From: Siphonodentalium dalli
Taxonomy: Eukaryota; Mollusca; Scaphopoda; Gadilida; Siphonodentaliidae
Assembly (NCBI GenBank): GCA_032622095.1
Contig: CP136063.1
Span: forward strand, 80,143,980-80,207,979
Direction of reading: 5' to 3'
DNA: 64,000 nt
Shown: positions 15,112 to 59,949 of the stretch, one piece after another
Numbering within the stretch: position 1 is the first letter of the stretch
Layout: each line of letters starts with the position of its first letter
Position numbers and translations under genes: made by a program
The notes under the pieces: model-generated
Told to the model about the DNA's origin: nothing
Database searches by the model: none
Seen by the model: the letters and a program-made list of their open reading frames with translations, nothing else

Positions 15112-15851
15112 TCACCATCAAGACAATAAATGTAAAAAACATCAAGAGTAACCAGATATATACACAGCAACTACTAGATCAATGTGACATCCTATGTATT
15201 CAAGAACATTGGCTATATAAATACCAACAAGGATTTCTGGAAGAATTTCAGGATTCTCATACAACTTACTCCAAATCAGTTGATGAAGATAACATTATAT
15301 CACCGCAAGAGATGCCAAGAGGATACGGAGGTGTTGCCACGTTACTCAAAAGAGAGAAATTTCCTGTTACCAAAATGTTGCCAGATGGATCCCCCAATCT
15401 TATAGTAGTGGAAATACCTGTAGAACCACCGATCTGTTTAATTAATGTGTATATGCCTTCAAGGGGAGATGCTGATAGTGAAGACAGATTTGGATCATAT
15501 CTAGATGAAGTCACAGAAATTTCGAAGAAATATAGAGATACCCATATAATAATTTACTGTGGAGATTGGAACGCTTCTCTTTTGATGAGGGATAATAACA
15601 GGAGAGATGTCAAGCTTGATTGTGCAGCAGATGAGATTGGAATGAAGAGTATCGTATGCTTGCGGCCAACATTTTACCACACAAATGAGAGGGACTTGTC
15701 TCAAATTGACTACATCTTTATCCACAAGACATACCAGGAATTACTAATAGATATTGCAATAGCTGAAAGAAGTGAATTGAATACATCTGATCATGTTCCA
15801 GTCACAGGGAAGATTAAATTGAAGAATGCAATAAAGTACCAGCCCGTATAA
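15051..15851 (+). CDS. LINE ORF2 N-terminal part: APE-type endonuclease (266 aa)
   Basis: The protein would nick target DNA for target-primed reverse transcription. Signature motifs appear in family order: IKTINVKN (Asn), QEHW (Glu), RGYGG, LINVYMPSRGD, IIYCGDWNAS (Asp/Asn), LSQIDYIF (Asp) and TSDHVPV (catalytic His). It lies in the -1 frame relative to ORF1. It ends at a TAA at 15849 where the RT frame takes over. Codon 15834-15836 (AAG) and the RT-frame codon starting at 15836 (GTA) would join in frame if one base were present, so EN and RT were evidently one polypeptide before a single-base loss near 15836. Confidence 0.85.
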   Translation: MRGPSLGSDMAASSISNEHVITIKTINVKNIKSNQIYTQQLLDQCDILCIQEHWLYKYQQGFLEEFQDSHTTYSKSVDEDNIISPQEMPRGYGGVATLLKREKFPVTKMLPDGSPNLIVVEIPVEPPICLINVYMPSRGDADSEDRFGSYLDEVTEISKKYRDTHIIIYCGDWNASLLMRDNNRRDVKLDCAADEIGMKSIVCLRPTFYHTNERDLSQIDYIFIHKTYQELLIDIAIAERSELNTSDHVPVTGKIKLKNAIKYQPV

Positions 15852-18520
15852 AATGGGAGAATTGCAACCAACAGCTATATGAGGACTATGTAAGATGTCA
15901 TCTTAAAAGTGGGAAATCACAGTCACTGTTTGATATGGGTCTAATGATAGAAGATCTCTCCAAAATTCTCAAAACAGCTGCAAAAAAGAGTATTCCGAAG
16001 TTTAAAGAGATGGTCAAGGTTAAGAAGAAGGAACGAGTTTGGTCAGAAGAGATTGCTGCAGCGGTGAAGTTGTCTAAGAAAGCATTTTGGGAATGGAAGA
16101 CGCAGGGTCGACCTAAATCTCCAACAAATAGATTATTGATGAATAGAAAGAGGACTTCGAGATTGCTGAGGAGTGCTCAAAGACTGGAGGCTGTTAACAA
16201 TAGAAAGATGATGATTGAAGAGATTATACAGGCAAAGGGGGAAAACTCGTCACTATTCTTCAAATTAGTGAATAAACAGCGACAAAATAAATCAACAATC
16301 ACTAAGGAACTATTTGTCAATGGAAGGACGCTATCATCAAGTGAAGATATCAGAGAGGGATGGGCAGAGTATTTTGCGGGTTTGGCATCTCCATTGGAGG
16401 ATCCTTTATTCAATGATACATATGATAAAGAAGTTGACAAGGACATATTAGCGATTGAATCTCTCTGCAGTGATCAACATATGCCATTACCGACAATCTC
16501 TGAAATTGAAGTTGAAAAGATAATAAGCAGTTTGAAGAATGGGAAATCAAAAGATCATCTAGGACTTCAAGCAGAGCATATCAAAATGGGAGGGCTGCCG
16601 GTCATCAAGTTTTTAACTGACTTCATCAATCAATGTTTTGAACAGAAGAAAGTCCCAGATATTTTGAAGATTGGAGTTCTTACACCGGTACATAAGAAAG
16701 ATGAAAAGATTCTACCAACTAAGTACAGAGGCATCACAGTCACTCCTATTGTCCTTAAAGTGATTGAAAATATTCTGATCAAAACATCATCAGAGAAATT
16801 AAACCTGACGCAATCCAAGCTTCAAAAAGAATTTACCAAAGGGGTGTCTGCAACTAATGCAGGTGTAATCATCACAGAAGTACTGAATGAAGCAAAGGAA
16901 TCAAAGAAACCATTACATCTTGTTACGCTTGATACTCAGAAAGCTTTTGATGTTGTGCCACATACACATCTGATGAGAAGATTATATCTGGATGAGGTAC
17001 AGGGAGATGAGTGGCTATTGATTAACAACATCTATAAGGACATGACGACGAGAGTAAAATGGGAGAATGAACTGTCTCATCAATTTGATATACAACAGGG
17101 AGTGAGACAAGGAGGAGTCCTATCAGCTGTACACTACAAGAGGTTCAACAATCCAATGCTGCTGAATATTGAACGTCATTACAACGGTGCGAGGATCGGA
17201 CATATTCAGATTCCACATACAACATGTGCTGATGATGTAGCACTCTTGTCTCATGATGGGTCGGAAATGAATGCAATGCTGAAGGAGGTGGAAGATTTCT
17301 CACACTTAAATAGATACAAGATAAATCCGATGAAGAGTGCTGCCTTATCACTAAACATAAAAAATATACCTGCATTGGAGACATTTATGTTTGAAGAAAA
17401 ACCGATTGTTGCAGAAGATAAGTTGACACATGTTGGGCTGGAAAGAAATATTGGAGGAAAGTTAAATGTTGATGAGAGAATCCAGAGAGGACGAAGAACT
17501 GTTTATGCGCTGATGGGTGCGGGTCTACATGGAAGAAATGGTCTGGCTCCAAATGTATCTATTAATCTATGGAATGTTTATGTGCTTCCAAGAATGCTAT
17601 ACGGGATTGAATGTGTCACATACAGTATGACTGAATTGAATTTGCTAGAAATTTATCAGAGAAAGGTGCTGAAACAGTTGCAGTATTTACCACCCAGGAC
17701 TCCTAATGCTGCTGTTTATGCTTTGCTTGGCTGTCTACCGATTGAGGCTGTTATCCACAAGAAGATGTTGTCCCTATTCTCTAGTATTATCCATAACAAG
17801 GGTTCTGTGGAAATCTCCATTGCCGAAAGACAGCTTGCTATGAAGAATTTGGACTCTACTAGCTGGTTTGTGACTGTAAGAAAGGTTTTGTGGATGTACG
17901 AGTTGCCATCAGTTTTTGAAGTAATGGAAAGCCCACTTGATAAGAAGTCCTGGAAGGAGTTGGTAGACAAGAAGGTGCATGAGCTTTGGGAAGGGAGGAT
18001 CAAGGAGGATATGAAGTTGAAATCTTCACTGAAGTATTTGAACCCAGATACAGTACAGATTGGTTCTCCTCATCACTTATGGGTCAGTTTACACTCCAAT
18101 GTTCATGATGTTAATTTGGCAGCAATAAAAGCAAGACTCCTGACTGGTACCTATACACTCCAGAGAAATAGATCTGTTTACAGTCGGCAAAAGGAGAGTT
18201 CGTTGTGTCAACTGTGTAAAGATGGAGAAGAATCAAGGGAGCACTTTCTAACAGCCTGCAGGCATGACCAAATGATTGATGCAAGAGAGAAGGCAATCGT
18301 AAAACTGCAATCTATTATCCCTGACTCTATTCTTACTAACATACTGGCAGATTCTAATCTACTAACTCAGCTCATATTGGACTGTTCAATGTCAGTAATA
18401 GTGGAGATGTTAGACCTACACATGGATCAGTTGACGTTAAATTCTATTGAGATGTGGAGCAGACAATATATTGGGAGGCTCCATAGCATCCGCTCCTCAA
18501 TCCTTACCAGATGTCAGTAG
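15836..18520 (+). CDS. LINE ORF2 C-terminal part: reverse transcriptase and zinc knuckle
   Basis: The first ATG is at 15935 (861 aa), but the frame is open back to about 15836 with linker-like sequence (VPARIKWENCNQQLYEDY), so the ATG is probably not a true start. RT motifs: TPVHKKDEKILPTKYRGITV (fingers), LVTLDTQKAFDVVPH (motif A), QGVRQGGVLS (motif B, about residue 388 from the ATG) and TTCADDVALLS (motif C, about residue 431). The usual Y/F before ADD is Cys here. Near residue 757 a CQLC...H...C zinc knuckle typical of LINE C-termini is intact. Apart from the shift at 15836 there is no stop, so inactivation, if any, is recent. Confidence 0.88.
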   Translation, partial: VPARIKWENCNQQLYEDYVRCHLKSGKSQSLFDMGLMIEDLSKILKTAAKKSIPKFKEMVKVKKKERVWSEEIAAAVKLSKKAFWEWKTQGRPKSPTNRLLMNRKRTSRLLRSAQRLEAVNNRKMMIEEIIQAKGENSSLFFKLVNKQRQNKSTITKELFVNGRTLSSSEDIREGWAEYFAGLASPLEDPLFNDTYDKEVDKDILAIESLCSDQHMPLPTISEIEVEKIISSLKNGKSKDHLGLQAEHIKMGGLPVIKFLTDFINQCFEQKKVPDILKIGVLTPVHKKDEKILPTKYRGITVTPIVLKVIENILIKTSSEKLNLTQSKLQKEFTKGVSATNAGVIITEVLNEAKESKKPLHLVTLDTQKAFDVVPHTHLMRRLYLDEVQGDEWLLINNIYKDMTTRVKWENELSHQFDIQQGVRQGGVLSAVHYKRFNNPMLLNIERHYNGARIGHIQIPHTTCADDVALLSHDGSEMNAMLKEVEDFSHLNRYKINPMKSAALSLNIKNIPALETFMFEEKPIVAEDKLTHVGLERNIGGKLNVDERIQRGRRTVYALMGAGLHGRNGLAPNVSINLWNVYVLPRMLYGIECVTYSMTELNLLEIYQRKVLKQLQYLPPRTPNAAVYALLGCLPIEAVIHKKMLSLFSSIIHNKGSVEISIAERQLAMKNLDSTSWFVTVRKVLWMYELPSVFEVMESPLDKKSWKELVDKKVHELWEGRIKEDMKLKSSLKYLNPDTVQIGSPHHLWVSLHSNVHDVNLAAIKARLLTGTYTLQRNRSVYSRQKESSLCQLCKDGEESREHFLTACRHDQMIDAREKAIVKLQSIIPDSILTNILADSNLLTQLILDCSMSVIVEMLDLHMDQLTLNSIEMWSRQYIGRLHSIRSSILTRCQ

Positions 18521-21838: not shown

Positions 21839-22323
21839 ATACTTCCATGTTTTAACATGGAAGTATATTGTAATTCTTCTGGCTTTTATTATTATAAGTT
21901 ATTCTTATTATTCCGATAACATGCCTTAATCTCAGGAACGGCTGAACCGATTCACCCGATTTCTTTGGTTTAAGTATATAACTTTGGAAGTTCTAGTAAA
22001 ATGGCCTATTGAGAATTTCTTCCGACCTTGACCTTCGCAGTTATCGCCATTTTGTTGATTTTTGGGGGGGGGGGGTTTAGCGCCACTAAAATGACTTGCA
22101 AAATCGAGGTTTGATTTGTTATATCGTCGAAACGGCTTGGCCGATTAATTTGAAATTTTGTAGCCATTGAGCATACGCAGTCGATGCACAAATAGGAAAA
22201 TTCATCTCACCTTGACCTTTGGAAACAACGCTCTTTATATGTGTTATTGTTGTTAACGTATCTCCTCCGAAACTGCTTGAGATATCGGGTTCGGACTTTT
22301 TTCATTATCTGCGCATATATGTG
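21839..22323. mobile_element. left part of a tandem-repeat element (HINE/pearl-like?) split by the giant palindrome
   Basis: It begins with a perfect hairpin, ATACTTCCATGTT/AACATGGAAGTAT (21839-21866), and then enters a repeat (GGTTTGATT..TCGTCGAAACGGCTTGG, GACCTTGACCTTTGG, GTATCTCCTCCGAAAC) that recurs in the same direction at 40030-40245. A G14 run lies at about 22062. It is cut at 22323 by the 17-kb insertion and resumes at 39650. See the right part for the 3' end. Confidence 0.5.
22318..22323. repeat. target-site duplication TATGTG, left
   Basis: Six bases identical to 39650-39655, directly outside the AG...CT ends of the giant palindrome. The uninterrupted sibling repeat at 40245-40275 reads GCGCCTCGGTATGTGTTATG, which has one copy of TATGTG at the same place, so the duplication marks an insertion. 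Confidence 0.85.
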
Positions 22324-25300
22324 AGTAGTATTAAGAGAAGGTATTATCTCTGTAATATATAAGTGAGGGGGACAAGGAAAGTGTTCAACGTTACATTATC
22401 GACTAATTGCCTTAGGGTGTGGTCATTTGGAATCCCCACCCCCACGGGATTTCATAAATACTACTTATCGAATGTTAAACGATACAATACCGACTAATTT
22501 ATATAGGTGTAGTCGTCGTCTGATAATCCCCCACCCCCCACGGGATTTCGTAAATAGTATTTAACGAATGTAAACGTTACAATAACGACTAATTTATATA
22601 AGTGTATCAAAAATGAGCTGTTTTACAAGGCAGATCTTATAGTCATACTAAATAGTAACTACTTTAAAAGCACATCCAAGCTACAATACGACCTATTTTA
22701 TGTTAGGTAATGATGTATGTTTATTTCAGATGGTATAGTCAGGCAAAATATTTCTAGGCAGATGTTATAGTCAGAATAGTTGAAGGCATAGCCAATATTT
22801 TAGTACGCCCGATTAAATACATGTAGTGATATGTAACTATATATAGGCATATAGTTAGTAGGTTAGTTATGATAGGTTAGTGAAATAATACTGTTATCCT
22901 GAGATGATGTTAAAATGATATGAATTATTCCCTAGTGAATAACCCCGTGCATGTAAAAAAACCACAGGGGCTAAAACACATGGAACATTTTGTTAGTGGC
23001 GGAACTTTTCTTCTCATTTCTTGTAGATTTGTAGGAAACACGATTCGATCTCATAAAACTCGATATTACAGAGTCTCGTAGAAAACGAAATGTGGAACCC
23101 AACACTTTAGTTCCTTTAATGAATATAAATGGTACATGAATAAATCTTAGTATACAAACAGATATAAAAAAAACATAATCAAATCAATCTTTTTTTAAGA
23201 TATGGACAGTCTGGTCTCCCCGTCGAAATATCTTCTGGCAAAAAAAAAATGTATCAATATTTAAAGTCAGACTAACTATTTCTAGGTTGGTGTTTAAATA
23301 CCTCTTCTAGGCTATACTCAAACAAACAATTTCTAGGTTATTCAAACATTTCCAAAAATATACTGAGTAAATCTACAAATATTAATTGGAATATAAAGAA
23401 CAGAGTTAGCTCCCCATGTGAATTGTAACAGTATTAAAATTAATCATTATTTAAAGTCAAACTATTTATTTATAAGTTGGTCATAAAATTACTACTTCTA
23501 GGCTATGGGTTATACTCAGGCAAACTATTTTAGGTTAATCAAAAATATCAGAGTTGTAAACTAAATCTACAAATATTAATTGGAATATAAAGAACAGAGT
23601 TAGCTCCCCTGTGCATTTGAATAATCTGTTTTATTAAGTTCAATATAGATGTTAAACGATTTATATATGTTAATGAATGATACAGTGATATATTCGTTAG
23701 CGAATAAACCTATGCATGTAAAACCACAGGTCTAAACACATTGAACTTTTTTAGGAACGTTCTTCTGTAGATTAGTAGGCAACACATTTCAAAAACACCA
23801 TTTCATAGTGATAGAAATCGAAATGTATAACCATTATCGGTTCCTTTAATGATTATGAATGACGGGAGTATTTTCGGTTTATATGAAGACAACGTATTTC
23901 AGTTCCAACACAAATTCAATATTTCAAAAATATAAAAAAATATCTCCCTTTTAATGAAATATTAAATGTAAAAGCACGATAAAGCATTTAAAACACAATT
24001 TAATTTACGTTTTCGTCAACAAAATTGAAGTTATATGTTATAATGCTTCAAAATCAATCAAAATATGAAAATCAAATATCTCAATTCAAAGCCAAATTTA
24101 AAAAAAACAATTTCAATGTTAACGGAAACAATTTAACAACAAAAAAATCTTTATCTGTTTTGCTAGCAAGTATCAAAAGTCCTTTTTCATTCCCACAATA
24201 ATCGTAAAACACAATAAATGTTTTGTCTTTAATAAAAAAAAATATAAAAATATTATAATCATAGTCAAAAAAATTCAAGCACAAACTTTATTAGTCCAAG
24301 TCTTCTTGTACTAAAACCAGCTAAGATATTGGGATGGCGATGCTGGCGTTTAGTCCAAGCCCGCTTGCATACCAATCCTACCACATGAGTTACGCCCACG
24401 ATCTGTGGCGGGAATTTGTGGTGTATTTTACTCGATTTACCTAGCAAATCAATACATGATGCTATATACATCGGAAAGGCTTACATCTAATGGTCATAAT
24501 GGTGTATAATAATCTAACTTTAATGTTAAATTACACATAGAATATTCCGGTTGATTGCCACAAACATCGTTGTTTTTTCTGTTTGTTTACTTAACTGAAA
24601 GCCGAACTCAGGTTCCGAAGAACTTCGGCATTGTCCGGTGTTTGTTTTGGCCGAGACGAATTTCGATACAAACAAAATGGCGGCCCCCATGATATTCTAA
24701 TGCTCATTGTGTTTACACTGTTTTAAACTGTGAGATGGTTGTAATTCGCGTAATTTATTTAATGTATTACATTTATATCTTCAATATGTATTTAATCTAT
24801 GTATTTATTTATTTATTGTCACGTATAATTACGATTACAATGGAGAATTCATCGTGCGTGGTAGTCCGTAAACCTGACTTTTATTATCAGAGCATAGCTC
24901 TATAAAAGTCAGGACTGTATATCACTGAAATCAGTACTCCGTCACAAATCATTGGTATGGACATTTACTCGACTTTTCACAAGCGATAACACACACTAAA
25001 AAATATTATTTAACAACCAAAACTCCCACATACTTGTAGATCAGAGCTTCTAGTACATTTCTAGTGTGTTGTCAATGCATGTTTAAGATGTTAGTCGTGT
25101 CATTCTTCGCATAAAGCGAGAGCATATTTCTACCGCCTCGAACTTTCAGCCATTTTGTATTTGCAAAAATCGGTCAAAACAGTGAATTAGGAATCGGAAA
25201 CGGAACGAACATAATTGGATTCCGGCTATAACATGTTCTTGTTTGTTTCGAGTTTATTTTCGATTCAAATATTTATAAACATGAGAAATAAACTTAATGA

Positions 25301-25629
25301 TTATATATGTATATATGCATGTAACCATTTCATAATCACCATCGTCATCATCCGACATCAACATATTATTATTAAAATAATCATCGCCATGATATCATCA
25401 TAATATATCATCAAATCAATTTTTTTCAAGGGCGTGGCTAAAGTGTCTTATTAAGTGTCCAAATTATTATTCCAACCTCTTTCCATCCTAATTGAGTGAG
25501 AATTTTCCAAATTGACACCTTAATTTACCAACTGTCGTCAAATTGTAATATAAGGTAGCCATACGGTCACTTATCGGCGTAGGTAATCGGCTTTAACTAA
25601 TTGACGACTCTAAGACTATAATATCCAGA

Positions 25630-26709
25630 TAGTGATGGGCGGTTAACCGAGAAAACAACTCAGTTTCGATTTTTAACAATAAACCGAAAACCGACCCACG
25701 CGATTCTGCTCAAACCGATATTACGTTTTTTTTTTATGTTTATTTTTCACTTAAATCAACTTATTATACCTCCCCAGGTACTTATTAGTTGATATTGTTA
25801 TCAAATTATCGGCCTCACTGATCAATATTATATCGGAATGTGTCCATTTCGTCTCAGATATGTGTTGTTATAATATCGTATAGGCGACTGTTTTTGTTCT
25901 TTTTCAAAACATATGGCCGAACAAAATAACGAACATGGTTCAACAAAAAGCCCTGTTTGGAGTTATTTTACGCGTCTAACTGGAGACGACTGCAAAAAAA
26001 TGTCGCTGCTTAATATGTCATAAAAACGTCGCTTAAACCAGAGTCCGGCTAACTATATGAATGCCGAACGTACACAAGTCCAAATAAGGCGATAATCGCC
26101 AACCAAAAAAATGGAAGCGTCTGCTAACTCGAAAACTTAAGTAAATGGTATGAACACTTTGGTCGTCTGGACATTCCGATGTGACGTAATCTGGTAGAAG
26201 TTTGCAGCCATTGTGCAGCTTGTAAAATATGTCGCAACATCACACATATCAAAGCGATCACACCGCAGTCATTGAATGTGGGTCAATCATACACGTGTCA
26301 ATAATTGTTACACAGTCAGGTCAAGGACGCCCACTGTTTGTGAATTTGCTGCTGTTTCTGGTTGAATTCTCAGACACTAATCAATGCATATAATATGATA
26401 AATATGTCAGAAAGGGATAAACAGTGAAGATGGGGGTGTTTATTTTTTAAAATACCGAATTGTATCATCTTATCGCGTTGGATTCAGTTTGCGTCGGCAT
26501 TTTGTCCCGTTGTTTACCTGTGATCGCATTTCCTTCCTAAAAAATTGAACGTTATTGGGACATTATTGACTCTAATTGCGGTTACTTTGAAAATATATTC
26601 ATTTCAGTATAATTTCACTATCTAGTAAAAAAAAACGAACCGAAACCGATGTTTTTTTCTCCCAGAAAAACCGAAACCGAACATAAAAAATCAAAACCGC
26701 CCATCTCTA
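25630..26709. mobile_element. decayed hAT element nested in the 3.8-kb transposon
   Basis: The ends TAGTGATGGGCGGTT and AACCGCCCATCTCTA are inverted and match the GATGGGC-type ends of hAT elements. The subterminal ends continue as inverted GGTTTCGGTTTTT-like sequence. The interior carries the start of a BED-finger transposase (25913). No matching 8-bp target duplication could be found, so the ends may have decayed. Confidence 0.6.
25913..26035 (+). pseudogene. N-terminal BED zinc-finger fragment of a hAT transposase
   Basis: From ATG 25913 the frame reads MAEQNNEHGSTKSPVWSYFT, the aromatic start of a BED finger, and then stops at 26021. One base of frame change in the A7 run at about 25995 restores KCRCLICHKNVA, which supplies the CxxC pair. 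The rest of the transposase is absent. BED fingers bind the ends of hAT transposons; here the gene is dead. Confidence 0.65.
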
Positions 26710-29039
26710 CTCGGTTTCGACTCCATATTGTCGCTAATGCTTTGTCAACGTTATTGGCACGTAAATCTTATGTAAGCATAGCGATGGCGACGTGGTCGGA
26801 ACTTGGGCGTTTGATACCGAGACCACTATTTGAATATTAATGTGTGTTCCAGAACGAAAAAGTTGAAGAAAATTGACAAATTTGTGAATTTAAAAACAGT
26901 TCAAACGTTAGTGTATTCCATGCCTCAGCCCGGACATATATACCAAATTTCATTAATATCCATTGAGAAACAACGGTCCAAACATATAACACCCCGTTTA
27001 CACATTTTATTTGGAGCCGGCCACGGCCTTGGCTTACACTTTATATTGTGTCCCCGCACATATCGCCACGCCCTTGGTCATTGTTTCTTTGAAATCAAAC
27101 TCCATTGTTTATTAAAACTTAAAATTCAAAAAATAGTTGTTGCTGTTGCTTTCACTCGGTCGATCGTTCCCGTAATTATCTGATCTCCTTTCCGGCTATG
27201 TAGTTGTAAGTTCGTTCCGCCTGTTCCGTTCCGTCAATTTACTACAGATCAAGTTTTAAATGTTGACAAATTAACGGTCTCGGATTTATCTCAAAGTTCG
27301 GATTATATTTCGAGAGTCAGGTATTGTACACAATGCCTTCGTAATCTGCCATTACCACTTGATCTTACAACATAATGGTAGCAGATAAAACCATCTAGTT
27401 ATATGTGAATTTGGTGATTGAAATGAGGCGGGGTAGTGTCTAATTTTTTCCCGAAATAGTTTTTCGGCAAGCAGTCTACCATGTATTTTTAAAACAACTA
27501 CAAATGTCACATTTTTATTTTTTTCGTCGGGTAGCTTGTTGATACTCACTCAGAACAGATTAGTCTTCCACATAATTTATATACAATGTTTGTATTTTCA
27601 TGTTATAAGTGGGAAAAAAATTCATAATAATGGAAAAGCACTTGGAGGTCGTGAATAAAGCTACGGAGGCCCAACTATTCGAGAGCGTCTAGCTCTGTTT
27701 GAATAGTTGGGTTCACCAACTACGTGCGTGGTTGATTGAAAATCTACGGAATATTTTCACCGGAAAATGCCGAACGCAGTTCGCAAGGTCAACTGAGTTC
27801 GCATACTTTAAAAAATATGTAAACACTGCGGCAAATGTTTCTTTTCACATTAAATTACCGCTTTCAATTCACAACCGATGTGGGTTTCAGATCAAATAGC
27901 ATGTCTTCTGCGGAAACTATCCGTTTATTGTAGCAATTGTGATATTTTATTTCATATAATTGTGGTTTTATTTGAGCGGGTCACTAACGCTTAAGCCGTG
28001 TCATAAGAGAGCATACAGGGCGGTCTTGGACTAAACGCCAGCATCGCCATCCCAATATCTTAGCTGGTTTTAGTACAAGAAGACTTGGACTAAAACTTTA
28101 TATGTAAAAAAAATATGAAAATTAAATAAAACTTACTTGCCTACTAAAGAACAGATCTATCGAAGTACAATTCTCTCTCAATTTTTACCTATGCGAATGT
28201 ATCTGTTTATATAAGGAAAAAACATTCTATCTTTAGTCCCAAGCAAATGATGTCATTCGAGGAATCTTTCTTTAAGTCGAATAATCTACCAACATATATC
28301 ACAAAACATGATGAGGTCTTCGTCGAGAATTCATGTCCGACTCTGTTTAACATAACAAGACTTACTTACTCATCAAAGAACAGATAATCCATCGAAGTAT
28401 AATACTGTCTCAATTTTACCTATCCGAATGTATCTGTTTATATAAAAAAACATTCATTCTATCTTTACTCTCAACAAAATGATGTCATACGACCCAAGTC
28501 GAATAATCTAATATCATTCGTCGAGAATTCATGTCGAGCTCTAGTTATATACAGTAACACATTAATTTACTCAATCTATCTATAGTCACAAAAAGTGAAG
28601 TCGAGCTATCTTGTTAAATGTCCTCGTATGCCTATCATAATGTACCCTCCCATTTTATCCCACGACATGAATAATATAATTCATGTCGACATATATCTGT
28701 ACAAGGCGACTAATTTATTCAACTAGGCTACCTAGCTTGGATCATATTTCAAAGAACGCATTCGTTAACGACCCGTCCTTACAAAACGAATAATTTACAC
28801 TACACCTGTCAAATTTGCATATTTAAGGTATGTTACGGTAAACATTCCAATGTATGCTATATAAGCCAGCTAAAATAGGAAATCAAAGCATGGATTCAAT
28901 AGTCAGATAAGTTTATTATATTATGATTTCAGATAACTTTTAATTAATTATTATCTTGTTCAACATATATTCTATGTAATTTAAAACAATAAATTATATA
29001 AAGTTTCTATATTAATCGGAGCGAAACATATTGAGGAAG

Positions 29040-29710
29040 TTTAAAGCAGTTGTCTTAAAGTCACACTAAGATTTATTTTCTTATTTGCGCACAGTATACT
29101 TTGTTTAAACCAGATGTCTTAAAATGGCACTAAGATTTATTTTATTATTTTTTATATCTCACACTATTTATAAACAAGATGTCTTAAAGGGGCACTAAGA
29201 TTTCATTTTATAATTTCAATACCAAAAGTGTTTGAACATCACAGCCAAAAATTTAACCTCAGAATTGTTAATAAATAAGTCTTCTTCGCATCTTAATTCT
29301 TAAAAGGGCGCTAATAATTTAACTTAAATATGGTTGAAAATTTATCGTTAAAGAGCGTTTATTATCTGCTTGTATGCAACTCTTTCAATCCCTCGTAATA
29401 TTCGGATACAGTATACTTTGTTCATCCCATATGTCTTAGAATGGCACTAAGATTTATTTTATTATTTTATCCATCTATTTATAAACAAGATGTCTTAAAA
29501 GGGCACTAAGATTTCATTTTATAATTTCAATACCAAAAGTGTTTCAATATCACAGCAAAACAAAAATTGTAATAATTTTACCTCAGAATTGTTAATAAAT
29601 AGGTCTTCTTCACATCATAATTCTTAAAAGGGCGCTAATAATTTAACTTAAATATGGTTGCAAATTTATCGTTAAAGAGCGTGTATTATCTGTTTGTATG
29701 CAACTCTTAA
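29040..29710. repeat. two tandem modules of about 340 bp in the left arm
   Basis: The sequence CAGTATACTTTGTT ... ATGTCTTA..ATGGCACTAAGATT ... ATAAACAAGATGTCTTAAA ... CAATACCAAAAGTGTTT ... TAAATATGGTTG is repeated once in tandem; the mirrored copies lie at 36120-36790. Non-coding. Confidence 0.7.
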
Positions 29711-30814
29711 TTATCAAAAACGGATACTGTTACACTATAATACACAAATTTTTAGATAGTATATTACAGTATCCAAATTAACATTGTTACAATTCAGATT
29801 CTACGGAAAGTTATCTTTAAACATGCAAATAAAAACAATAATCATAGTTTTACAATTGTTTTTTTATGTAAAATTTTATTTGTCTACACGTTGTGGCTAA
29901 GCATATCATAACAGTATATTTACATTTATCTAGCAAATGCGCTCTAATTTCTACAAATTAACATTCCAATTCATAAATTGTTTGTTTTTTGGAAGAAAAA
30001 AAATACTGTAACAGTTTTGTTTACATACCAACTCGTATAGTTTAATAAATAAAGATAACACTTACCTGATTATGGCAAATAATTCTCCCTTAATCATAAT
30101 GGCAACACGATTTGGAAAAACAAATGCTGATGAATCCGTACGCAATTTAGCATCAGATGTAAACATGCTCGGACAGAAACAATTCCCGGTCGTTCGTTTT
30201 TAAACTTACAATTGATGCAGGGTGAAGTGTCAAGCGTTAAGTTTCAACAAGCAGTGAATGGCCATTATATATCTGATTAATTTACCTTTGTATACAGCAT
30301 AACGCCCGTGTTGGCATCTGCACGCACGCTTAAAACTCATTAGTCATTGAAATTTGAAAATTTAGAATAATTATTTATCGCGCATTCATCGTACAGATTT
30401 ATACGATGAAAGCAAATATAAACTGCGTATGTGCACACGACTAATATATACTTTCAATGCTATGCCTATAAATAGTATGCAATTATCTCGCAGAATCAAT
30501 CAAACAATAATATTAAGCTAATTCTGTTAGTTACACCATTGCATCTGAAATTGCTCGATGTCGTTAGACTATAGGTTAATGTGTGTTTTATATGCATGTT
30601 CCCGTTCATTATCTGCACATTTTTAAATCGTCACGGAAATCTACCTACTAACATATTTGAACGCACATTATAATTTGGATAGTTAAATCATACATCTTAT
30701 CACTGGAAAAATATGAATATATGCTCTAAATCTGTTGGCAGGGCTATTTCAATATACAACATCATATGTATTCAATGTTTCTAATATATAAATTATACCC
30801 CAAATTATCATACA

Positions 30815-31935
30815 AAAAATATGTTTTCAAGATGGCATCCAATATGGCTATTCAGAAATGTGAGCTTCAAAATATATCCTGATAAAATGTACACATTTAC
30901 TGTGATCATATATCGTACAACTGGATGTATTAACGTTTATAGCGTAATACCTATGCTATCTCCATTACAAAAGATGGCTGCCGAAATGGCCATCGTTTAC
31001 TTCAAGATACAGGGCTTAAAAATGTATTGCATTTTTTACAAAGGCTCATATGCATCATTTAGGTTTGTAGTTTGTATAGTATATGCTAAATTATCATACA
31101 ATTTGTCATCACAAAAAAACAATATATATTTTCAAGATGGCGTCCAATATGGCTATTCAGAAATGTCAGCTTCAAAATATATATTGATAAAATGTACACA
31201 TTTGCTGTGATCATATATCGTACACACTGGATGTATTAACGTTTATAGCGTAATACCTATGCTATCTCCATTACAAAAGATGGCTGCCGAAATGGCCATC
31301 GTTTACTTCAAGATACAGGGCTTAAAAATGTATTGCATTTTTTACAAAGGGTCATATGCATCATTTAGGTTTGTAGTTTGTATAGTATATGCTAAATTAT
31401 CATACAATTTGTCATCACAAAAAAAACAATATATATTTTCAAGATGGCGTCCAATATGGCTATTCAGAAATGTCAGCTTCAAAATATATCTTGATAAAAT
31501 GTACACATTTGCTGTGATCATATATCGTACAACTGGATGTATTAGCGTTTATAGCGTAATACCTATGCTATCTCCATTACAAAAGATGGCTGTCGAAATG
31601 GCCATCGTTTACTTCAAGATACAGGGCTTAAAAATGTATTGCATTTTTACAAAGGCTCATATGCATCATTTAGGTTTGTAGTTTGTATAGTATATGCCAA
31701 ATTATCATACAATTTGTCATCACAAAAAAAACAATATATATTTTCAAGATGGCGTCCAATATGGCTATTCAGAAATGTCAGCTTCAAAATATATCTTGAT
31801 AAAATGTACACATTTGCTGTGATCATATATCGTACAACTGGATGTATTAGCGTTTATAGCGTAATACCTATGCTATCTCCATTACAAAAGATGGCTTCCA
31901 AAATGGCCACCTTTCCTCTAAAATACAGAGCTTAA
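30815..31935. repeat. 308-bp tandem repeat, about four units (left arm)
   Basis: Units start with TTTTCAAGATGGCGTCCAAT at about 30825, 31132, 31438 and 31741; a diverged fifth fragment lies at 32535. Each unit carries AAGATGGCGTCC and AAAGATGGCTG, which resemble the YY1-type core AAGATGGC. The units stay open in one frame, giving a repetitive pseudo-protein, but that frame depends on the repeat and shifts between units. Mirror copies occupy 33895-35010. Confidence 0.8.
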
Positions 31936-32820
31936 AATTACATGCATAATTTAGAAAGTTGATTTTGATTAGTTATACTACTTATTTCTTCAAAGAGTTA
32001 ATATTTCCTTATTCTTATCACAGTTTTAAAAACAATCAACAAAAATCTTCATTGTGTATCATATAATGAGTTCTTGGTAGGCTATCTCATTGTACAACAT
32101 ATACGTATTCATATTTGCTTGTAATATCCAATGGAGTATTTCGTAAATAAAGTTGTCAAATGCTATAATATAATATAAACTCTCAATATCAAAGTATTAA
32201 ACAAACGAAAAAATAGTCACAGAACCGTCCCATGGGGTAGAATCCCTCTAATACATATCTCATACACAATATTACTTTGTTTTAAACCGAGTTGTGTGGA
32301 ACATCGACATTTTAATATCATTTTAATCAACCGTTCTAGAACAAATTACTACACAATCTTTTCTTAAAAGCTGTTAAAAAAAAATTGTCTACCTAATTCA
32401 CAATTATTTTTTTGCTAGGTTCGTAGTATTATCATATGGAGCGTAGGTTCGAAAACGAAATTAGTAAGAATGCTTTTTTTTGGTAGTGGGAATGTGTCAG
32501 GGGTAAATTCTGCTATAATTCACTTAATGCTATGTTTTCAAGATGGCGTCCAATATGGCAACTGAGAACTGTGAGCTTCAAAATATATCTGATAAATTGT
32601 ATGCCTTAGTTAATATGATCACATAATTATGCGCTTGGCTGTCTTCGCGTTGATAACGTATTAGCAACGCTGACGCCATTATAAAATGGCAAACATTTAC
32701 TTCAAAATATACAGCTTCAGAGAAATGTTCGGTATTTTACAAAATAAGACCGAGTGATATTTTGTCTTTCTTCTCGAAATGTATGAACAAAACAAGAGAT
32801 GATATACATTACAAACAACT

Positions 32821-33012
32821 GAAATGTAGTCAGTTGACGACCACTATACACAAAAATAAATTTGATTACTGCCAACACAGTGTCAGAATTGAAAAATAAA
32901 TAGTAAATGTGTATCATAAACACTATAATATCGCATTGAATATTCATTTTATTTATTTATATTATGCCGACCTTATGTAAAACGGGTCGGCATAATCTAA
33001 ATAAATAAAAAA
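32821..33012. other. central spacer of the giant palindrome with a small hairpin
   Basis: This 192-bp stretch is the only unpaired part of the palindrome apart from the nested transposon. Near its right side lies a separate hairpin, ATTATGCCGACC / GGTCGGCATAAT (32961-32972 and 32985-32996), extended by ATTTATTTA / TAAATAAAT. A hairpin-within-loop could be a remnant of the event that made the palindrome, or a functional cis site. Confidence 0.7.
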
Positions 33013-36000
33013 AGTTGTTTGTAATGTATATCATCTCTTGTTTTGTTCATACATTTCGAGAAGAAAGACAAAATATCACTCGGTCTTATTTTGTAAAATA
33101 CCGAACATTTCTCTGAAGCTGTATATTTTGAAGTAAATGTTTGCCATTTTATAATGGCGTCAGCGTTGCTAATACGTTATCAACGCGAAGACAGCCAAGC
33201 GCATAATTATGTGATCATATTAACTAAGGCATACAATTTATCAGATATATTTTGAAGCTCACAGTTCTCAGTTGCCATATTGGACGCCATCTTGAAAACA
33301 TAGCATTAAGTGAATTATAGCAGAATTTACCCCTGACACATTCCCACTACCAAAAAAAAGCATTCTTACTAATTTCGTTTTCGAACCTACGCTCCATATG
33401 ATACTACGAACCTAGCAAAAAAATAATTGTGAATTAGGTAGACAATTTTTTTTTAACAGCTTTTAAGAAAAGATTGTGTAGTAATTTGTTCTAGAACGGT
33501 TGATTAAAATGATATTAAAATGTCGATGTTCCACACAACTCGGTTTAAAACAAAGTAATATTGTGTATGAGATATGTATTAGAGGGATTCTACCCCATGG
33601 GACGGTTCTGTGACTATTTTTTCGTTTGTTTAATACTTTGATATTGAGAGTTTATATTATATTATAGCATTTGACAACTTTATTTACGAAATACTCCATT
33701 GGATATTACAAGCAAATATGAATACGTATATGTTGTACAATGAGATAGCCTACCAAGAACTCATTATATGATACACAATGAAGATTTTTGTTGATTGTTT
33801 TTAAAACTGTGATAAGAATAAGGAAATATTAACTCTTTGAAGAAATAAGTAGTATAACTAATCAAAATCAACTTTCTAAATTATGCATGTAATTTTAAGC
33901 TCTGTATTTTAGAGTAAAGGTGGCCATTTTGGAAGCCATCTTTTGTAATGGAGATAGCATAGGTATTACGCTATAAACGCTAATACATCCAGTTGTACGA
34001 TATATGATCACAGCAAATGTGTACATTTTATCAAGATATATTTTGAAGCTGACATTTCTGAATAGCCATATTGGACGCCATCTTGAAAATATATATTGTT
34101 TTTTTTGTGATGACAAATTGTATGATAATTTGGCATATACTATACAAACTACAAACCTAAATGATGCATATGAGCCTTTGTAAAAATGCAATACATTTTT
34201 AAGCCCTGTATCTTGAAGTAAACGATGGCCATTTCGACAGCCATCTTTTGTAATGGAGATAGCATAGGTATTACGCTATAAACGCTAATACATCCAGTTG
34301 TACGATATATGATCACAGCAAATGTGTACATTTTATCAAGATATATTTTGAAGCTGACATTTCTGAATAGCCATATTGGACGCCATCTTGAAAATATATA
34401 TTGTTTTTTTTGTGATGACAAATTGTATGATAATTTAGCATATACTATACAAACTACAAACCTAAATGATGCATATGACCCTTTGTAAAAAATGCAATAC
34501 ATTTTTAAGCCCTGTATCTTGAAGTAAACGATGGCCATTTCGGCAGCCATCTTTTGTAATGGAGATAGCATAGGTATTACGCTATAAACGTTAATACATC
34601 CAGTGTGTACGATATATGATCACAGCAAATGTGTACATTTTATCAATATATATTTTGAAGCTGACATTTCTGAATAGCCATATTGGACGCCATCTTGAAA
34701 ATATATATTGTTTTTTTGTGATGACAAATTGTATGATAATTTAGCATATACTATACAAACTACAAACCTAAATGATGCATATGAGCCTTTGTAAAAAATG
34801 CAATACATTTTTAAGCCCTGTATCTTGAAGTAAACGATTGCCATTTCGGCAGCCATCTTTTGTAATGGAGATAGCATAGGTATTACGCTATAAACGTTAA
34901 TACATCCAGTTGTACGATATATGATCACAGTAAATGTGTACATTTTATCAGGATATATTTTGAAGCTCACATTTCTGAATAGCCATATTGGATGCCATCT
35001 TGAAAACATATTTTTTGTATGATAATTTGGGGTATAATTTATATATTAGAAACATTGAATACATATGATGTTGTATATTGAAATAGCCCTGCCAACAGAT
35101 TTAGAGCATATATTCATATTTTTCCAGTGATAAGATGTATGATTTAACTATCCAAATTATAATGTGCGTTCAAATATGTTAGTAGGTAGATTTCCGTGAC
35201 GATTTAAAAATGTGCAGATAATGAACGGGAACATGCATATAAAACACACATTAACCTATAGTCTAACGACATCGAGCAATTTCAGATGCAATGGTGTAAC
35301 TAACAGAATTAGCTTAATATTATTGTTTGATTGATTCTGCGAGATAATTGCATACTATTTATAGGCATAGCATTGAAAGTATATATTAGTCGTGTGCACA
35401 TACGCAGTTTATATTTGCTTTCATCGTATAAATCTGTACGATGAATGCGCGATAAATAATTATTCTAAATTTTCAAATTTCAATGACTAATGAGTTTTAA
35501 GCGTGCGTGCAGATGCCAACACGGGCGTTATGCTGTATACAAAGGTAAATTAATCAGATATATAATGGCCATTCACTGCTTGTTGAAACTTAACGCTTGA
35601 CACTTCACCCTGCATCAATTGTAAGTTTAAAAACGAACGACCGGGAATTGTTTCTGTCCGAGCATGTTTACATCTGATGCTAAATTGCGTACGGATTCAT
35701 CAGCATTTGTTTTTCCAAATCGTGTTGCCATTATGATTAAGGGAGAATTATTTGCCATAATCAGGTAAGTGTTATCTTTATTTATTAAACTATACGAGTT
35801 GGTATGTAAACAAAACTGTTACAGTATTTTTTTTCTTCCAAAAAACAAACAATTTATGAATTGGAATGTTAATTTGTAGAAATTAGAGCGCATTTGCTAG
35901 ATAAATGTAAATATACTGTTATGATATGCTTAGCCACAACGTGTAGACAAATAAAATTTTACATAAAAAAAACAATTGTAAAACTATGATTATTGTTTTT

Positions 36001-39000
36001 ATTTGCATGTTTAAAGATAACTTTCCGTAGAATCTGAATTGTAACAATGTTAATTTGGATACTGTAATATACTATCTAAAAATTTGTGTATTATAGTGTA
36101 ACAGTATCCGTTTTTGATAATTAAGAGTTGCATACAAACAGATAATACACGCTCTTTAACGATAAATTTGCAACCATATTTAAGTTAAATTATTAGCGCC
36201 CTTTTAAGAATTATGATGTGAAGAAGACCTATTTATTAACAATTCTGAGGTAAAATTATTACAATTTTTGTTTTGCTGTGATATTGAAACACTTTTGGTA
36301 TTGAAATTATAAAATGAAATCTTAGTGCCCTTTTAAGACATCTTGTTTATAAATAGATGGAAAAAATAATAAAATAAATCTTAGTGCCATTCTAAGACAT
36401 ATGGGATGAACAAAGTATACTGTATCCGAATATTACGAGGGATTGAAAGAGTTGCATACAAGCAGATAATAAACGCTCTTTAACGATAAATTTTCAACCA
36501 TATTTAAGTTAAATTATTAGCGCCCTTTTAAGAATTAAGATGCGAAGAAGACTTATTTATTAACAATTCTGAGGTTAAATTTTTGGCTGTGATGTTCAAA
36601 CACTTTTGGTATTGAAATTATAAAATGAAATCTTAGTGCCCCTTTAAGACATCTTGTTTATAAATAGTGTGAGATATAAAAAATAATAAAATAAATCTTA
36701 GTGCCATTTTAAGACATCTGGTTTAAACAAAGTATACTGTGCGCAAATAAGAAAATAAATCTTAGTGTGACTTTAAGACAACTGCTTTAAACTTCCTCAA
36801 TATGTTTCGCTCCGATTAATATAGAAACTTTATATAATTTATTGTTTTAAATTACATAGAATATATGTTGAACAAGATAATAATTAATTAAAAGTTATCT
36901 GAAATCATAATATAATAAACTTATCTGACTATTGAATCCATGCTTTGATTTCCTATTTTAGCTGGCTTATATAGCATACATTGGAATGTTTACCGTAACA
37001 TACCTTAAATATGCAAATTTGACAGGTGTAGTATAAATTATTCGTTTTGTAAGGACGGGTCGTTAACGAATGCGTTCTTTGAAATATGATCCAAGCTAGG
37101 TAGCCTAGTTGAATAAATTAGTCGCCTTGTACAGATATATGTCGACATGAATTATATTATTCATGTCGTGGGATAAAATGGGAGGGTACATTATGATAGG
37201 CATACGAGGACATTTAACAAGATAGCTCGACTTCACTTTTTGTGACTATAGATAGATTGAGTAAATTAATGTGTTACTGTATATAACTAGAGCTCGACAT
37301 GAATTCTCGACGAATGATATTAGATTATTCGACTTGGGTCGTATGACATCATTTTGTTGAGAGTAAAGATAGAATGAATGTTTTTTTATATAAACAGATA
37401 CATTCGGATAGGTAAAATTGAGACAGTATTATACTTCGATGGATTATCTGTTCTTTGATGAGTAAGTAAGTCTTGTTATGTTAAACAGAGTCGGACATGA
37501 ATTCTCGACGAAGACCTCATCATGTTTTGTGATATATGTTGGTAGATTATTCGACTTAAAGAAAGATTCCTCGAATGACATCATTTGCTTGGAACTAAAG
37601 ATAGAATGTTTTTTCCTTATATAAACAGATACATTCGCATAGGTAAAAATTGAGAGAGAATTGTACTTCGATAGATCTGTTCTTTAGTAGGCAAGTAAGT
37701 TTTATTTAATTTTCATATTTTTTTTACATATAAAGTTTGTGCTTGAATTTTTTTGACTATGATTATAATATTTTTATATTTTTTTTTATTAAAGACAAAA
37801 CATTTATTGTGTTTTACGATTATTGTGGGAATGAAAAAGGACTTTTGATACTTGCTAGCAAAACAGATAAAGATTTTTTTGTTGTTAAATTGTTTCCGTT
37901 AACATTGAAATTGTTTTTTTTAAATTTGGCTTTGAATTGAGATATTTGATTTTCATATTTTGATTGATTTTGAAGCATTATAACATATAACTTCAATTTT
38001 GTTGACGAAAACGTAAATTAAATTGTGTTTTAAATGCTTTATCGTGCTTTTACATTTAATATTTCATTAAAAGGGAGATATTTTTTTATATTTTTGAAAT
38101 ATTGAATTTGTGTTGGAACTGAAATACGTTGTCTTCATATAAACCGAAAATACTCCCGTCATTCATAATCATTAAAGGAACCGATAATGGTTATACATTT
38201 CGATTTCTATCACTATGAAATGGTGTTTTTGAAATGTGTTGCCTACTAATCTACAGAAGAACGTTCCTAAAAAAGTTCAATGTGTTTAGACCTGTGGTTT
38301 TACATGCATAGGTTTATTCGCTAACGAATATATCACTGTATCATTCATTAACATATATAAATCGTTTAACATCTATATTGAACTTAATAAAACAGATTAT
38401 TCAAATGCACAGGGGAGCTAACTCTGTTCTTTATATTCCAATTAATATTTGTAGATTTAGTTTACAACTCTGATATTTTTGATTAACCTAAAAATAGTTT
38501 GCCTGAGTATAACCCATAGCCTAGAAGTAGTAATTTTATGACCAACTTATAAATAAATAGTTTGACTTTAAATAATGATTAATTTTAATACTGTTACAAT
38601 TCACATGGGGAGCTAACTCTGTTCTTTATATTCCAATTAATATTTGTAGATTTACTCAGTATATTTTTGGAAATGTTTGAATAACCTAGAAATTGTTTGT
38701 TTGAGTATAGCCTAGAAGAGGTATTTAAACACCAACCTAGAAATAGTTAGTCTGACTTTAAATATTGATACATTTTTTTTTTGCCAGAAGATATTTCGAC
38801 GGGGAGACCAGACTGTCCATATCTTAAAAAAAGATTGATTTGATTATGTTTTTTTTATATCTGTTTGTATACTAAGATTTATTCATGTACCATTTATATT
38901 CATTAAAGGAACTAAAGTGTTGGGTTCCACATTTCGTTTTCTACGAGACTCTGTAATATCGAGTTTTATGAGATCGAATAGTGTTACCTACAAATCTACA

Positions 39001-39649
39001 ATAACGAAGAAACAGTTCCGACACTAACAAATATTCCATGTGTTTTAGCCTTGTGGTTTTTTACATGCACGAGGTTATTCACTAGCGAATAATTCATCTC
39101 ATTTAGGACTATTATTTTACTAACCTATCATAACTATATTACATATCAATACATGTATTCAATCGTGCGTAATAATCCTTCAAATAGTTACTAGTTAGCC
39201 TGACTATAACATCTGCCTAGAAATAGTTTGCTTTACTATACCATCTGAAATAAACATACATCATTATCTAACATAAAATAGGTCGTATTGTAGCTTGGAT
39301 GTGCTTTTAAAGTAGTTACTATTTAGTATGACTATAAGATCTGCCTTGTTAAACAGCTCATTTTTGATACACTTATATAAATTAGTCGTTATTGTAACGT
39401 TTACATTCGATAAGTAGTATTTATGAAATCCCGTGGGGGTGGGGGATTATCATACGACGACTACACCTATATAAATTAGTCGGTAATGTATCGTTTAACA
39501 TTCGATAAGTAGTATTTATGAAATCCCGTGGGGGTGGGGATTCCAAATGACCACACCCTAAGGCAATTAGTCGATAATGTAACGTTGAACACTTTCCTTG
39601 TCCCCCTCACTTATATATTACAGAGATAATACCTTCTCTTAATACTACT
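33013..39649. repeat. right arm of the giant palindrome
   Basis: Reverse complement of the left arm, uninterrupted, 6.64 kb. It preserves the empty target site of the left-arm transposon near 37732 (ATATAAAGTTTGTGCTTG). The 308-bp units appear at 33895-35010 and the 340-bp modules at 36120-36790, all in mirrored orientation. No gene is recognised. Confidence 0.85.
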
Positions 39650-39655
39650 TATGTG
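39650..39655. repeat. target-site duplication TATGTG, right
   Basis: Identical to 22318-22323; follows directly after CTTAATACTACT. Confidence 0.85.
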
Positions 39656-40957
39656 TGTTCTAAAATAATGAAAAATGAGAGTGGTTACACTTCCGGTTTA
39701 AAAGTTCGCCACTGGTCGAATAATAAATAACGCTCTTTATACGAAATCCAGAAGGGCTTGGTATATTGAGTTATATGCATTAACCTCTGCGTTCTATAAT
39801 GATATATAAAGTTTACGGATTTAACTTCCAGTTTGGGAGAACGAGCGTGTGAGTATGTATCTCAAAACTATTTTGGCCGCAAATTTTGATGAAATTTGGT
39901 GAATACAATCTGCCGCTGATCACTATTCCACTCGAATTTTTTAAATCTTAAACTTAAACGTCTGTAGCTATGGCTGATTAAAAACCTGATTTTTTTTGGG
40001 TTTTTGCGCCACCAGAATGACTTGCTAAAATGCAAAATCGAGGTTTGATTTCTTATATCATCGAAACGGCTTGGCCAATTGATTTGAAGTTTTGTATATG
40101 CATAGCCATTGAGCATGCGCAGTCGATACACAAATAGGGAATTTCGCCTGACCTTGACCTTTGGAAACAACGCTCTTTATCTGTGTTATTATTGTTAACG
40201 TATCTCCTCCGAAACGGCTTGATATATCGAGTTAGGACTTCTTCTGTTATTTGCGCCTCGGTATGTGTTATGAAATACTGAAAAATGGTAGGGTCGCACT
40301 TCCAGTTAAAAAGTTGGCTATTGGTCGAAGAATAAAATAATGCTCTTTATGCGAAATCCATAACGGCTTAATATATTGAGTTGGGACTTTTTGCATTATG
40401 TGCATCAAACTCTGCGCTCTCCAATGATATATATAGGTTACGGGGTTCGCTTCCAGTTTTGGAGCACGGGCGTGTGGGTATGTATTTAAAAACTATTTTG
40501 GCGCAGATTTTGATGAAATTTGGTGGATGTAATCTTTAGTTGCCACTGATCACTATCATACTCGAATTTTTTTAATCGGTCTTAAACTTCTGGAGTTATG
40601 GCTGCTTAAAAACCTGATTTTTGTGTGTTTTCGCGCCACCAGAATGACAGCTTGATGTATTGCGTTAGGACTTTTTGCTCCAGACTCTGCGCTGTATAAT
40701 GATATATCAGGTTTACGGATTTCACTTCCGGTCTTGGAGAAATGGCGTGTGGGTGTGTATCTCAAAATGTTTTCGTTGCAGATTTTGATGAAATTTGGAG
40801 GATAGAATATGTGGTTGCCGATTACTACTATGATTTAGAGTAACACCATACTCACACGTGTCTACTGAAAACTTACGTATTATCAGATGATACAATTTTC
40901 CGTCATTGGCGAACATGGAAGTATCGAAATTGCTGTGCAATTTCAGTTTCATTCTAG
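39650..40957. mobile_element. right part of the tandem-repeat element carrying the giant palindrome
   Basis: It contains at least two and a half long units sharing landmarks such as CACTTCC..TTTAAAAGTT, GCTCTTTAT, CTCTGCG..TATAATGATAT, GATTTTGATGAAATTTGG and GCGCCACCAGAATGAC (39670, 40290, 40670). The right end has AACATGGAAGTAT (40912), matching the left hairpin, followed by a hairpin GAAATTGC-TGT-GCAATTTC (40926-40944) and, nine bases later, CTAG before T. Hairpin plus CTAG is the 3' signature of Helitron-like elements. Tandem cores with such ends are known from bivalve pearl/HINE elements. The affiliation is tentative. Confidence 0.45.
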
Positions 40958-50338: not shown

Positions 50339-50394
50339 TGTAGGTGTTACAATCGGCTTGTGTGTTTGGGCGTGTCAGCTTTGGCTGTGTTGTT

Positions 50395-50682
50395 TTAACG
50401 TCTGTATGTGAACTGTTGGATGGTTTCTTTTGTGAGTTGAGTTCTGTATATGGTGTTGACAGCATGTTCGACGTATTGACACACGCTGTCTTTGATATTT
50501 CGTGGATCTCTTTGTTTGTCAGATAGGGCGCTGACAATGGTCGATGTTATTACAGCTGCAAGCTTTAGGGTTTCAGTGATGTCGGCTGGTTTGCTTGTAG
50601 CTGCTGCGTATGTGAGCTTTTGTGTTTCTTTTGATGTCACTTCAGTTTTGAAAACTGTGCATCCCTTGTATGCTGAGTGGTC
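50395..50682 (-). CDS. LINE ORF1, C-terminal part (after the inversion break)
   Basis: Minus strand, from 50682: DHSAYKGCTVFKTEV, then LTYAAATSKPAD and IVSALSDKQRDPRN, ending ETIQQFTYRR. The opening supplies the second half of a zinc knuckle and the rest matches the conserved tail of Jockey-like ORF1 proteins. The stop lies about 56 bases before the ORF2 ATG. No start codon belongs to this piece. Confidence 0.75.
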   Translation of the reverse strand, partial: DHSAYKGCTVFKTEVTSKETQKLTYAAATSKPADITETLKLAAVITSTIVSALSDKQRDPRNIKDSVCQYVEHAVNTIYRTQLTKETIQQFTYRR

Positions 50683-50723
50683 TAGAAATACAACTTGCTG
50701 GGTTCAGAGCCTCTATCGACAAG

Positions 50724-53085: not shown

Positions 53086-53178
53086 CCCGTCATTTTATTT
53101 TACATAAGTAAAATAAAGTGTCATTTTATTTTACTTAAGTAAAATAAAACCATGTAGATGGCGCTTTATTTCACTTAA
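53086..53178. repeat. ACTTAAGT/ACATAAGT palindromes beside MITE copy C
   Basis: Two short palindromes, TTTTACATAAGTAAAA and TTTTACTTAAGTAAAA, are followed by the half-palindrome TTTATTTCACTTAA that ends at the MITE. The equivalent region beside copy B is 1961-2205, sharing GATGGCG.TTTATTTCACTTAA. Confidence 0.7.
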
Positions 53179-53760: not shown

Positions 53761-53778
53761 TTAAGTAAAATAAAATGA

Positions 53779-53970
53779 CTTCTCATTTAAATTGTGTCAA
53801 CCATATGGGGCTGTTAGCTTTATCAACCGTTGGAAACCTTTGGAATTTTAATTATGTTTTGATGTGGGGTGCAATTCGATTTTCCATGTTGGACATCCCC
53901 ATCAACTGACACCCTCTATAGCTATACATCCCTGCCAAATATATATAGCTTCAGGCTAGCCGATTACCGA
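53779..53970. repeat. dispersed block, second copy of 480-672
   Basis: Direct match to the block near the window start, sharing AATTGTGTCAACCAT, TTGATGTGGGGTGCAAT and CCAAATATATATAGCTTC. A 99-codon frame downstream (53982-54278) has an ATG and ends in TAA but no recognisable domain; it may be chance. Confidence 0.65.
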
Positions 53971-59936: not shown

Positions 59937-59949
59937 TTAATTGGTCTCT

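Follow-up and report, generated by a model that had tools for sequence, protein, structure and literature searches.

Mavericks (Polintons) resemble integrated viruses. A survey of vertebrate Mavericks reports (AGT)2//(ACT)2 as their commonest end motif, along with 6-bp target duplications; it puts their terminal repeats at 46-1,447 bp, with a mean of 402, and their total length at 12.7-24.6 kb, and it states that Maverick particles have not been observed (PMC8097293). We analysed a 64,000-nucleotide stretch of the genome of the scaphopod Siphonodentalium dalli (the window; C3:80143980-80207979 of a 2.23-Gb genome in nine contigs, C1-C9), which holds a giant palindromic element. This element resembled the surveyed Mavericks in its ends, its 6-bp duplication and its size, which is ~13.5 kb without a nested insertion and falls within the surveyed range. 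As far as that survey's account of Maverick structure goes (PMC8097293), the element differed in being gene-less, in having a ~6.7-kb inverted repeat and in being almost wholly palindromic. Our data make it very probable that the element is a gene-less, satellite-like, non-autonomous Maverick derivative that is mobilised in trans and would keep its symmetry through hairpin (snap-back) intermediates.

Other systems share single traits with this palindrome. Like foldback-type elements (Galileo, FB and Tetris), it has long, internally repetitive inverted repeats and little or no unique centre. Foldback, Galileo and MULE elements make 7-9 bp duplications and use a P- or Mutator-type transposase, whereas the palindromes have 6-bp duplications and Maverick ends, and the partner that we scanned encodes an rve integrase. 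Adeno-associated virus (AAV) is a parvovirus with terminal hairpins; the palindrome, in contrast, lies in a chromosome and has protein-primed Mavericks as its relatives. Defective AAV particles include double-stranded, snapback-configured genomes, (PMC8235507), which resemble the intermediate that we propose for the palindrome. Our literature searches for non-autonomous or defective Polintons or Mavericks found no description of one, and no giant-palindrome Maverick appeared in the titles or abstract starts of the matches listed. The Tlr elements of Tetrahymena are, to our knowledge, not palindromes. They were once proposed as non-autonomous Polinton derivatives, a view that one paper argues against while reporting a Tlr capsid protein (PMC4028283).

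The window element begins AGTAGTATTAAGAG and finishes CTCTTAATACTACT, that is, with AGTAGT...ACTACT termini. An earlier note on this DNA, made from the sequence alone, had named AG...CT ends and an exact TATGTG duplication on both sides, and both were read as described (Table 1). An 18-mer of the end had two matches in the window, both with 0 mismatches, whereas 100 shuffled versions averaged 0.05 matches at ≤3 mismatches and never yielded two. The note's two 6.6-kb arms and 192-bp centre also held up, as arms pairing over 6.7 kb (98.4% identity; the outer and inner left parts against the right arm) around a 192-bp gap, but a nested transposon had gone unmentioned. Its ends read TAGTCCAAG..., it contains no recognised gene, and because it interrupts the left arm the element spans 17.3 kb and not ~13.5 kb. 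Mismatches between the arms were clustered, with 51 of 56 substitutions at arm positions ~160 to 720; interior of position 720 the window arms were ~99.9% identical.

The proposal that a sibling repeat preserves the empty site stood, with one correction. The sister repeat at 40140-40390 aligned gap-free at the site, with the flanks joined by a single TATGTG, which fits a 6-bp target duplication. However, the hexamer aligned in the sister was GGTATG, and its own TATGTG was offset by 2 bp (hexamers read by eye).

The view of the palindrome as mobile and without genes was borne out by its inverted arms, its 6-bp duplication, its other copies and its reading frames. Stop-to-stop frames in the arms reached at most 156 codons, the longest one overlapping a 305-bp tandem array, and the 10 of 43 listed frames that were scanned matched no Pfam family at any family cut-off. 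Frames for protein-primed DNA polymerase B (pPolB) and integrase were found neither in the frame listing nor in these Pfam scans, and we therefore filed the window element as a non-autonomous derivative and not as a Maverick proper. As to capsid, protease and packaging ATPase genes, no arm frame in the window element exceeded 156 codons. Scanning the window for Rfam families and tRNAs gave no matches, the outer left arm had none in phage records, and the element had none in a host-genome sample of 20 stretches (192 kb). Ten viral-contig matches to the 18-mer end were taken as chance, as none was otherwise similar to the element.

We searched the host genome with the terminal 167 bp and obtained at least 78 matches (best 40 of 156 candidates scored). 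Both ends were read for 18 further elements with these ends (type i) and one end for two more, which gives 19 two-ended elements with the window's. The 14-bp ends were identical in all 19, starting AGTAGTATTAAGAG and ending CTCTTAATACTACT, and 18 had a perfect 6-bp duplication; in the remaining one, C5:21.36, the duplication follows an extra terminal ACT. Such copies had been proposed in the earlier note as a check. A 25-base pattern with ≤3 mismatches gave 58 type-i matches, in 28 inverted pairs and 2 singles (reversed control, 0). Palindromes also occurred behind other ends: C9:126.18 (type ii, AGTAGTATTAAGTAGAGGG) had the duplication TATACC and an inner arm 100% identical to the window's, and C4:200.46 (type iii, AGTAGTGTATAAGTAGAATC; boundary set by eye, one base within the BLAST match) had the duplication GACAAC and a 99% identical inner arm. 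Pattern searches found 35 pairs and 27 singles for type ii, and for type iii 15 pairs with 4 singles (controls, 0 in each), and across all end types 20 of 21 two-ended elements had a perfect 6-bp duplication. An inner-arm query (window 28500-29000) had at least 40 matches (best 40 of 178 candidates scored), counted among those listed as 14 inverted pairs and 12 singles. The window element is one of dozens of gene-less palindromes in the host genome.

Two side observations concern these copies. At C1:247734038-247743855 (L095) there is a shortened palindrome whose arms join at GAATATTC without a loop; 368 bp are perfectly self-inverted, and the left arm has a 3.9-kb gap. Unpaired or oddly spaced variants of type-ii ends were grouped within ~1-2 Mb (C3:259.7-261.4 Mb, C6:124-125 Mb and C9:105.9 Mb) and are perhaps amplified remnants.

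A second check raised in the note, for relatives with Maverick genes between the same termini, gave a positive result: pPolB copies were found, and the one examined, C6:94.42, also has an integrase. Among 21 type-i elements including the window's, each sampled by one inner piece (four for C6:94.42), 11 had the palindrome arm and 10 matched the coding element. Between its type-i ends, C6:94.42 carries DNA_pol_B_2 (E 2.2e-39) and an rve integrase (5e-17) by Pfam; its other frames stayed below every Pfam cut-off. Its frame L080:935-2131 had 1,097 homologues, with several F54H12.2-like animal proteins among the 120 listed, a label from which we take it to be the capsid protein. We found no intact packaging ATPase in C6:94.42; all that we saw was a Walker-A-like motif in a short frame. 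The terminal repeat of this copy is ~0.8 kb, its left and right ends are 99.7% identical, and its four inner pieces showed no inverted match to each other. The palindrome and C6:94.42 have in common the terminal segment to ~805, plus a short match at ~829-894 on the right side of C6:94.42.

A pPolB match was present in 9 of the 10 coding-type type-i elements (one of the ten, C4:12.62, is a single end in our lists). The pPolB protein search gave at least 67 matches (best 61 of 2,346 candidates scored). Of these 67, 22 covered the whole query without a stop. End pairs enclosing a pPolB match numbered 31 of 78 (10/28 type i, 17/35 type ii and 4/15 type iii), and 24 of the 27 type-i and type-ii pairs with pPolB were 14.1-14.6 kb long. 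Inner-arm matches lay inside end pairs of every type (4 type i, 4 type ii and 3 type iii). Related interiors thus lie behind three end types, and pPolB copies are likewise enclosed by every one of these types.

The two classes meet in C3:253.01 (C3:253011252-253024454), a natural chimera known from its left and mirrored right pieces. Its left piece is palindrome arm (84.7% to the window), its mirrored right piece is coding element (98.2%), and it is flanked by a perfect 6-bp duplication, CTCGTA. Given the shared ends, the duplications and the chimera, the simplest account is a Maverick integrase acting in trans. Comparison of the copies strongly supports helper Mavericks as the likely suppliers of integrase and polymerase, and the same-ended copies and pPolB relatives also favour the earlier suggestion of a non-autonomous foldback relative mobilised in trans. 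What comparison with other copies added to that note, as described below, was the fold-back hairpin, a mixed right end and swapped ends.

Symmetry within copies was near perfect despite divergence between them. The left inner pieces of ten palindromic copies diverged by 0.2-18% from the window's; in nine of the ten the mirrored inner piece matched the left piece of the same copy at 98.8-100% (in C1:247.73 along just 273 of 501 bp), the tenth being the chimera C3:253.01. The 800-bp ends were ≥99.2% identical within the element in 15 of 19. Over 1,667 bp, the two ends were 99.94% identical in C4:264.79 and 100% in C5:170.51, and these two elements were ~5-12% apart in their aligned parts. End variants, read by hand, agreed in 28/28 type-i, 32/35 type-ii and 14/15 type-iii pairs. 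These data imply that one arm is copied or repaired from the other.

Many of the copies also share a fold-back centre, an inverted repeat of 64-66 bp. A 277-bp centre query gave at least 75 matches (best 40 of 60 candidates scored); 72 of the 75 were tallied, and 3 short second matches were excluded. At 20 of the 40 resulting centre loci the strands overlapped by ~66 bp at the hairpin, and at 10 they abutted. The window was tallied by script as abutting; comparison showed that its hairpin is present and that ~126 bp are missing on the right side. We used the 47 of 78 end pairs without a pPolB match to compare centres with midpoints, and 24 centre loci fell inside them, nine in pairs of type i, 14 in type ii and one in type iii. 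The centre lay ≤1 bp from the midpoint in 11 of these 24 elements (0 in nine) and ≤6 bp in 15. The 11 most symmetrical copies, on several contigs, ranged from 13,079 to 14,592 bp; symmetry to near the exact base thus holds at different element lengths.

We propose the following mechanism. The palindrome retains what a Maverick presumably needs in cis, the AGTAGT/ACTACT termini and ~0.8 kb of terminal sequence, and the remainder is ~6 kb of non-coding sequence in two head-to-head copies, which makes almost all of the element a palindrome. Coding Mavericks that share these ends would act as helpers in trans, lending their protein-primed DNA polymerase and their integrase, the latter creating the 6-bp duplications. 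Strand-displacement replication of the Maverick type would free a single strand, which would fold back on itself at the 64-66-bp inverted repeat to give one long hairpin; copying round the turn, or repair of the hairpin, may then make the arms identical again. Through end exchange with other Mavericks the same interior could gain the ends of different helpers. The near-coding length of gene-less copies further suggests that they may be packaged. A broader reading, which we put forward as tentative, is a palindromic satellite lineage parasitising several Maverick lineages at once: it would replicate as a hairpin by the helper's protein-primed polymerase, acquire helper ends by recombination and be held near helper length (13.1-14.6 kb vs 14.1-14.6 kb) through packaging in helper capsids. 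If true, a gene-less parasite that retains nothing of Mavericks but their ends, is found with the ends of several lineages and stays near helper length would be natural evidence that Mavericks act in trans in DNA replication and perhaps in packaging. Large palindromes kept near perfect by their own mobility would be unusual as well, and the replication route would become testable through snap-back DNA.

Several observations weigh against this interpretation. Half of the inner-arm matches (20/40) and 30 of the 67 pPolB matches lay outside any listed end pair, and C8:85.62, classed as coding by one piece, had no pPolB match. Past ~0.9 kb the arm had no match to C6:94.42, the one coding copy examined. 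End-to-end identity was lower in 4 of 19 elements (C3:253.01, 97.4%; C5:21.36, 96.8%; C8:85.62, 94.1%; window, 93.1%), and end variants were unmatched in some type-ii and type-iii pairs, so homogenisation is imperfect. Ten of the 40 centre loci were irregular or one-sided, and in 9 of the 24 located elements the centre lay >6 bp off the midpoint, the window among them because of its nested insertion. The window's right end was mixed. At 44 diagnostic sites distinguishing end subtype A from B (with reference copies hand-chosen after comparing 800-bp ends), its left end was A at all 44; in its right end, 40 sites were B, spanning arm positions ~417 to 719, and 4 were A. Coding-type C8:85.62 was likewise A at 44 sites on the left and B at 35 and A at 6 on the right, which indicates that end exchange between elements occurred in both classes. 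The patterns are plain, and from them we infer an exchange with other Mavericks, including its manner and timing. Mobilisation in trans is read from comparison of copies, whereas hairpin replication and packaging are steps that we infer.

Sex-chromosome palindromes keep their arms symmetrical by gene conversion, and host conversion between the arms after insertion could likewise account for the symmetry of a trans-mobilised Maverick derivative whose palindrome arose once, with no hairpin replication. The ~99.9% identity inside position 720 and the conversion-like tract at ~417 to 719, where the right arm is type B and the left arm type A, are in keeping with this account. We nevertheless consider it rather unlikely: 11 of 24 elements, spread over several contigs, have their centre ≤1 bp from the midpoint, 20 of 40 centre loci show the arms overlapping at the same short hairpin, and matched ends also occur in coding, non-palindromic copies such as C6:94.42, so that matching does not require a palindrome. 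A role of the palindromes mainly as hairpin-RNA sources, kept by the host as a defence that silences Mavericks, appears improbable. A transcript over the centre would be double-stranded and ~0.8 kb is common to C6:94.42, but the palindromes are dispersed with perfect 6-bp duplications, and most of the arm is unmatched in C6:94.42, so that small RNAs from the arm would not target its genes.

The lack of a recognisable gene within the palindrome, and an interior unmatched in the coding copy past ~0.9 kb, would also suit an undescribed giant-TIR (terminal inverted repeat) superfamily with its own transposase and no relation to Mavericks, as the earlier note had offered as an option. Same-ended copies and pPolB relatives leave no need for it: the ends, the duplication length and the 0.8-kb terminal segment are common to an element with pPolB and integrase, and a half-and-half chimera exists. 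We rejected an unrelated superfamily on the shared ends and the chimera, and regard it as very improbable. Inverted chimeras are a familiar artefact of long reads, and an assembly artefact or a local inverted duplication was considered on that ground. With differing flanks, 6-bp duplications, a nested insertion in a single arm and many copies on several contigs, we rejected both and give them next to no credence. Maverick-driven mobilisation with hairpin-maintained symmetry remains our preferred interpretation.

Table 1. Features of the palindromic element, in window coordinates.
Feature	Position	Strand	Evidence
Whole palindromic element, 17,326 bp (~13.5 kb without nested insertion)	22324..39649	.	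Inverted self-match, 6-bp duplication, near-empty sister site
Left target-site duplication TATGTG, exact match to the right one	22318..22323	+	
Right target-site duplication TATGTG	39650..39655	+	
Left arm, outer part	22324..24290	+	Inverted self-match
Left arm, inner part, 99.8% vs right arm	28093..32820	+	Inverted self-match
Right arm	33013..39649	-	Inverted self-match
Left terminal segment, arm positions 1-805, common to coding Maverick C6:94.42; type A at 44/44 diagnostic sites	22324..23128	+	
Right terminal segment, also common to coding Maverick C6:94.42; includes type-B tract	38894..39649	-	
Type-B tract of right arm (left arm type A there); approximate, coordinates hand-converted	38979..39234	-	
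Nested TIR transposon in left arm, bounded by 74-bp TIRs and flanked by a 7-9 bp duplication (AAACTTTAT if taken as 9)	24291..28093	.	Uninterrupted site in right arm
305-bp tandem array, 3.7 copies, left arm	30819..31937	+	
305-bp tandem array, 3.7 copies, right arm	33893..35011	-	
192-bp 'spacer' between arms: ~126 bp (palindromic in other copies, right-hand partner missing here) plus fold-back hairpin	32821..33012	.	
Fold-back hairpin: inverted repeat with short loop; palindrome centre in other copies	32947..33010	.	

Outside the palindrome, the right window edge (59011-63906) has exon-like frames, ankyrin-like by eye, and is perhaps part of a host gene; Pfam found no family in 62527-63906. 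A probable non-LTR (long terminal repeat) retrotransposon occupies 12649-18520, with a PHD-finger frame, an endonuclease-like frame (by eye) and a reverse transcriptase frame. At 47531-51806, a minus-strand endonuclease/reverse transcriptase frame (Pfam) adjoins a plus-strand frame that matches no Pfam family and has zinc-knuckle-like cysteines by eye. Related repeats, both inverted and direct and ~95-96% identical, lie at 478-1998 and 53129-53967.

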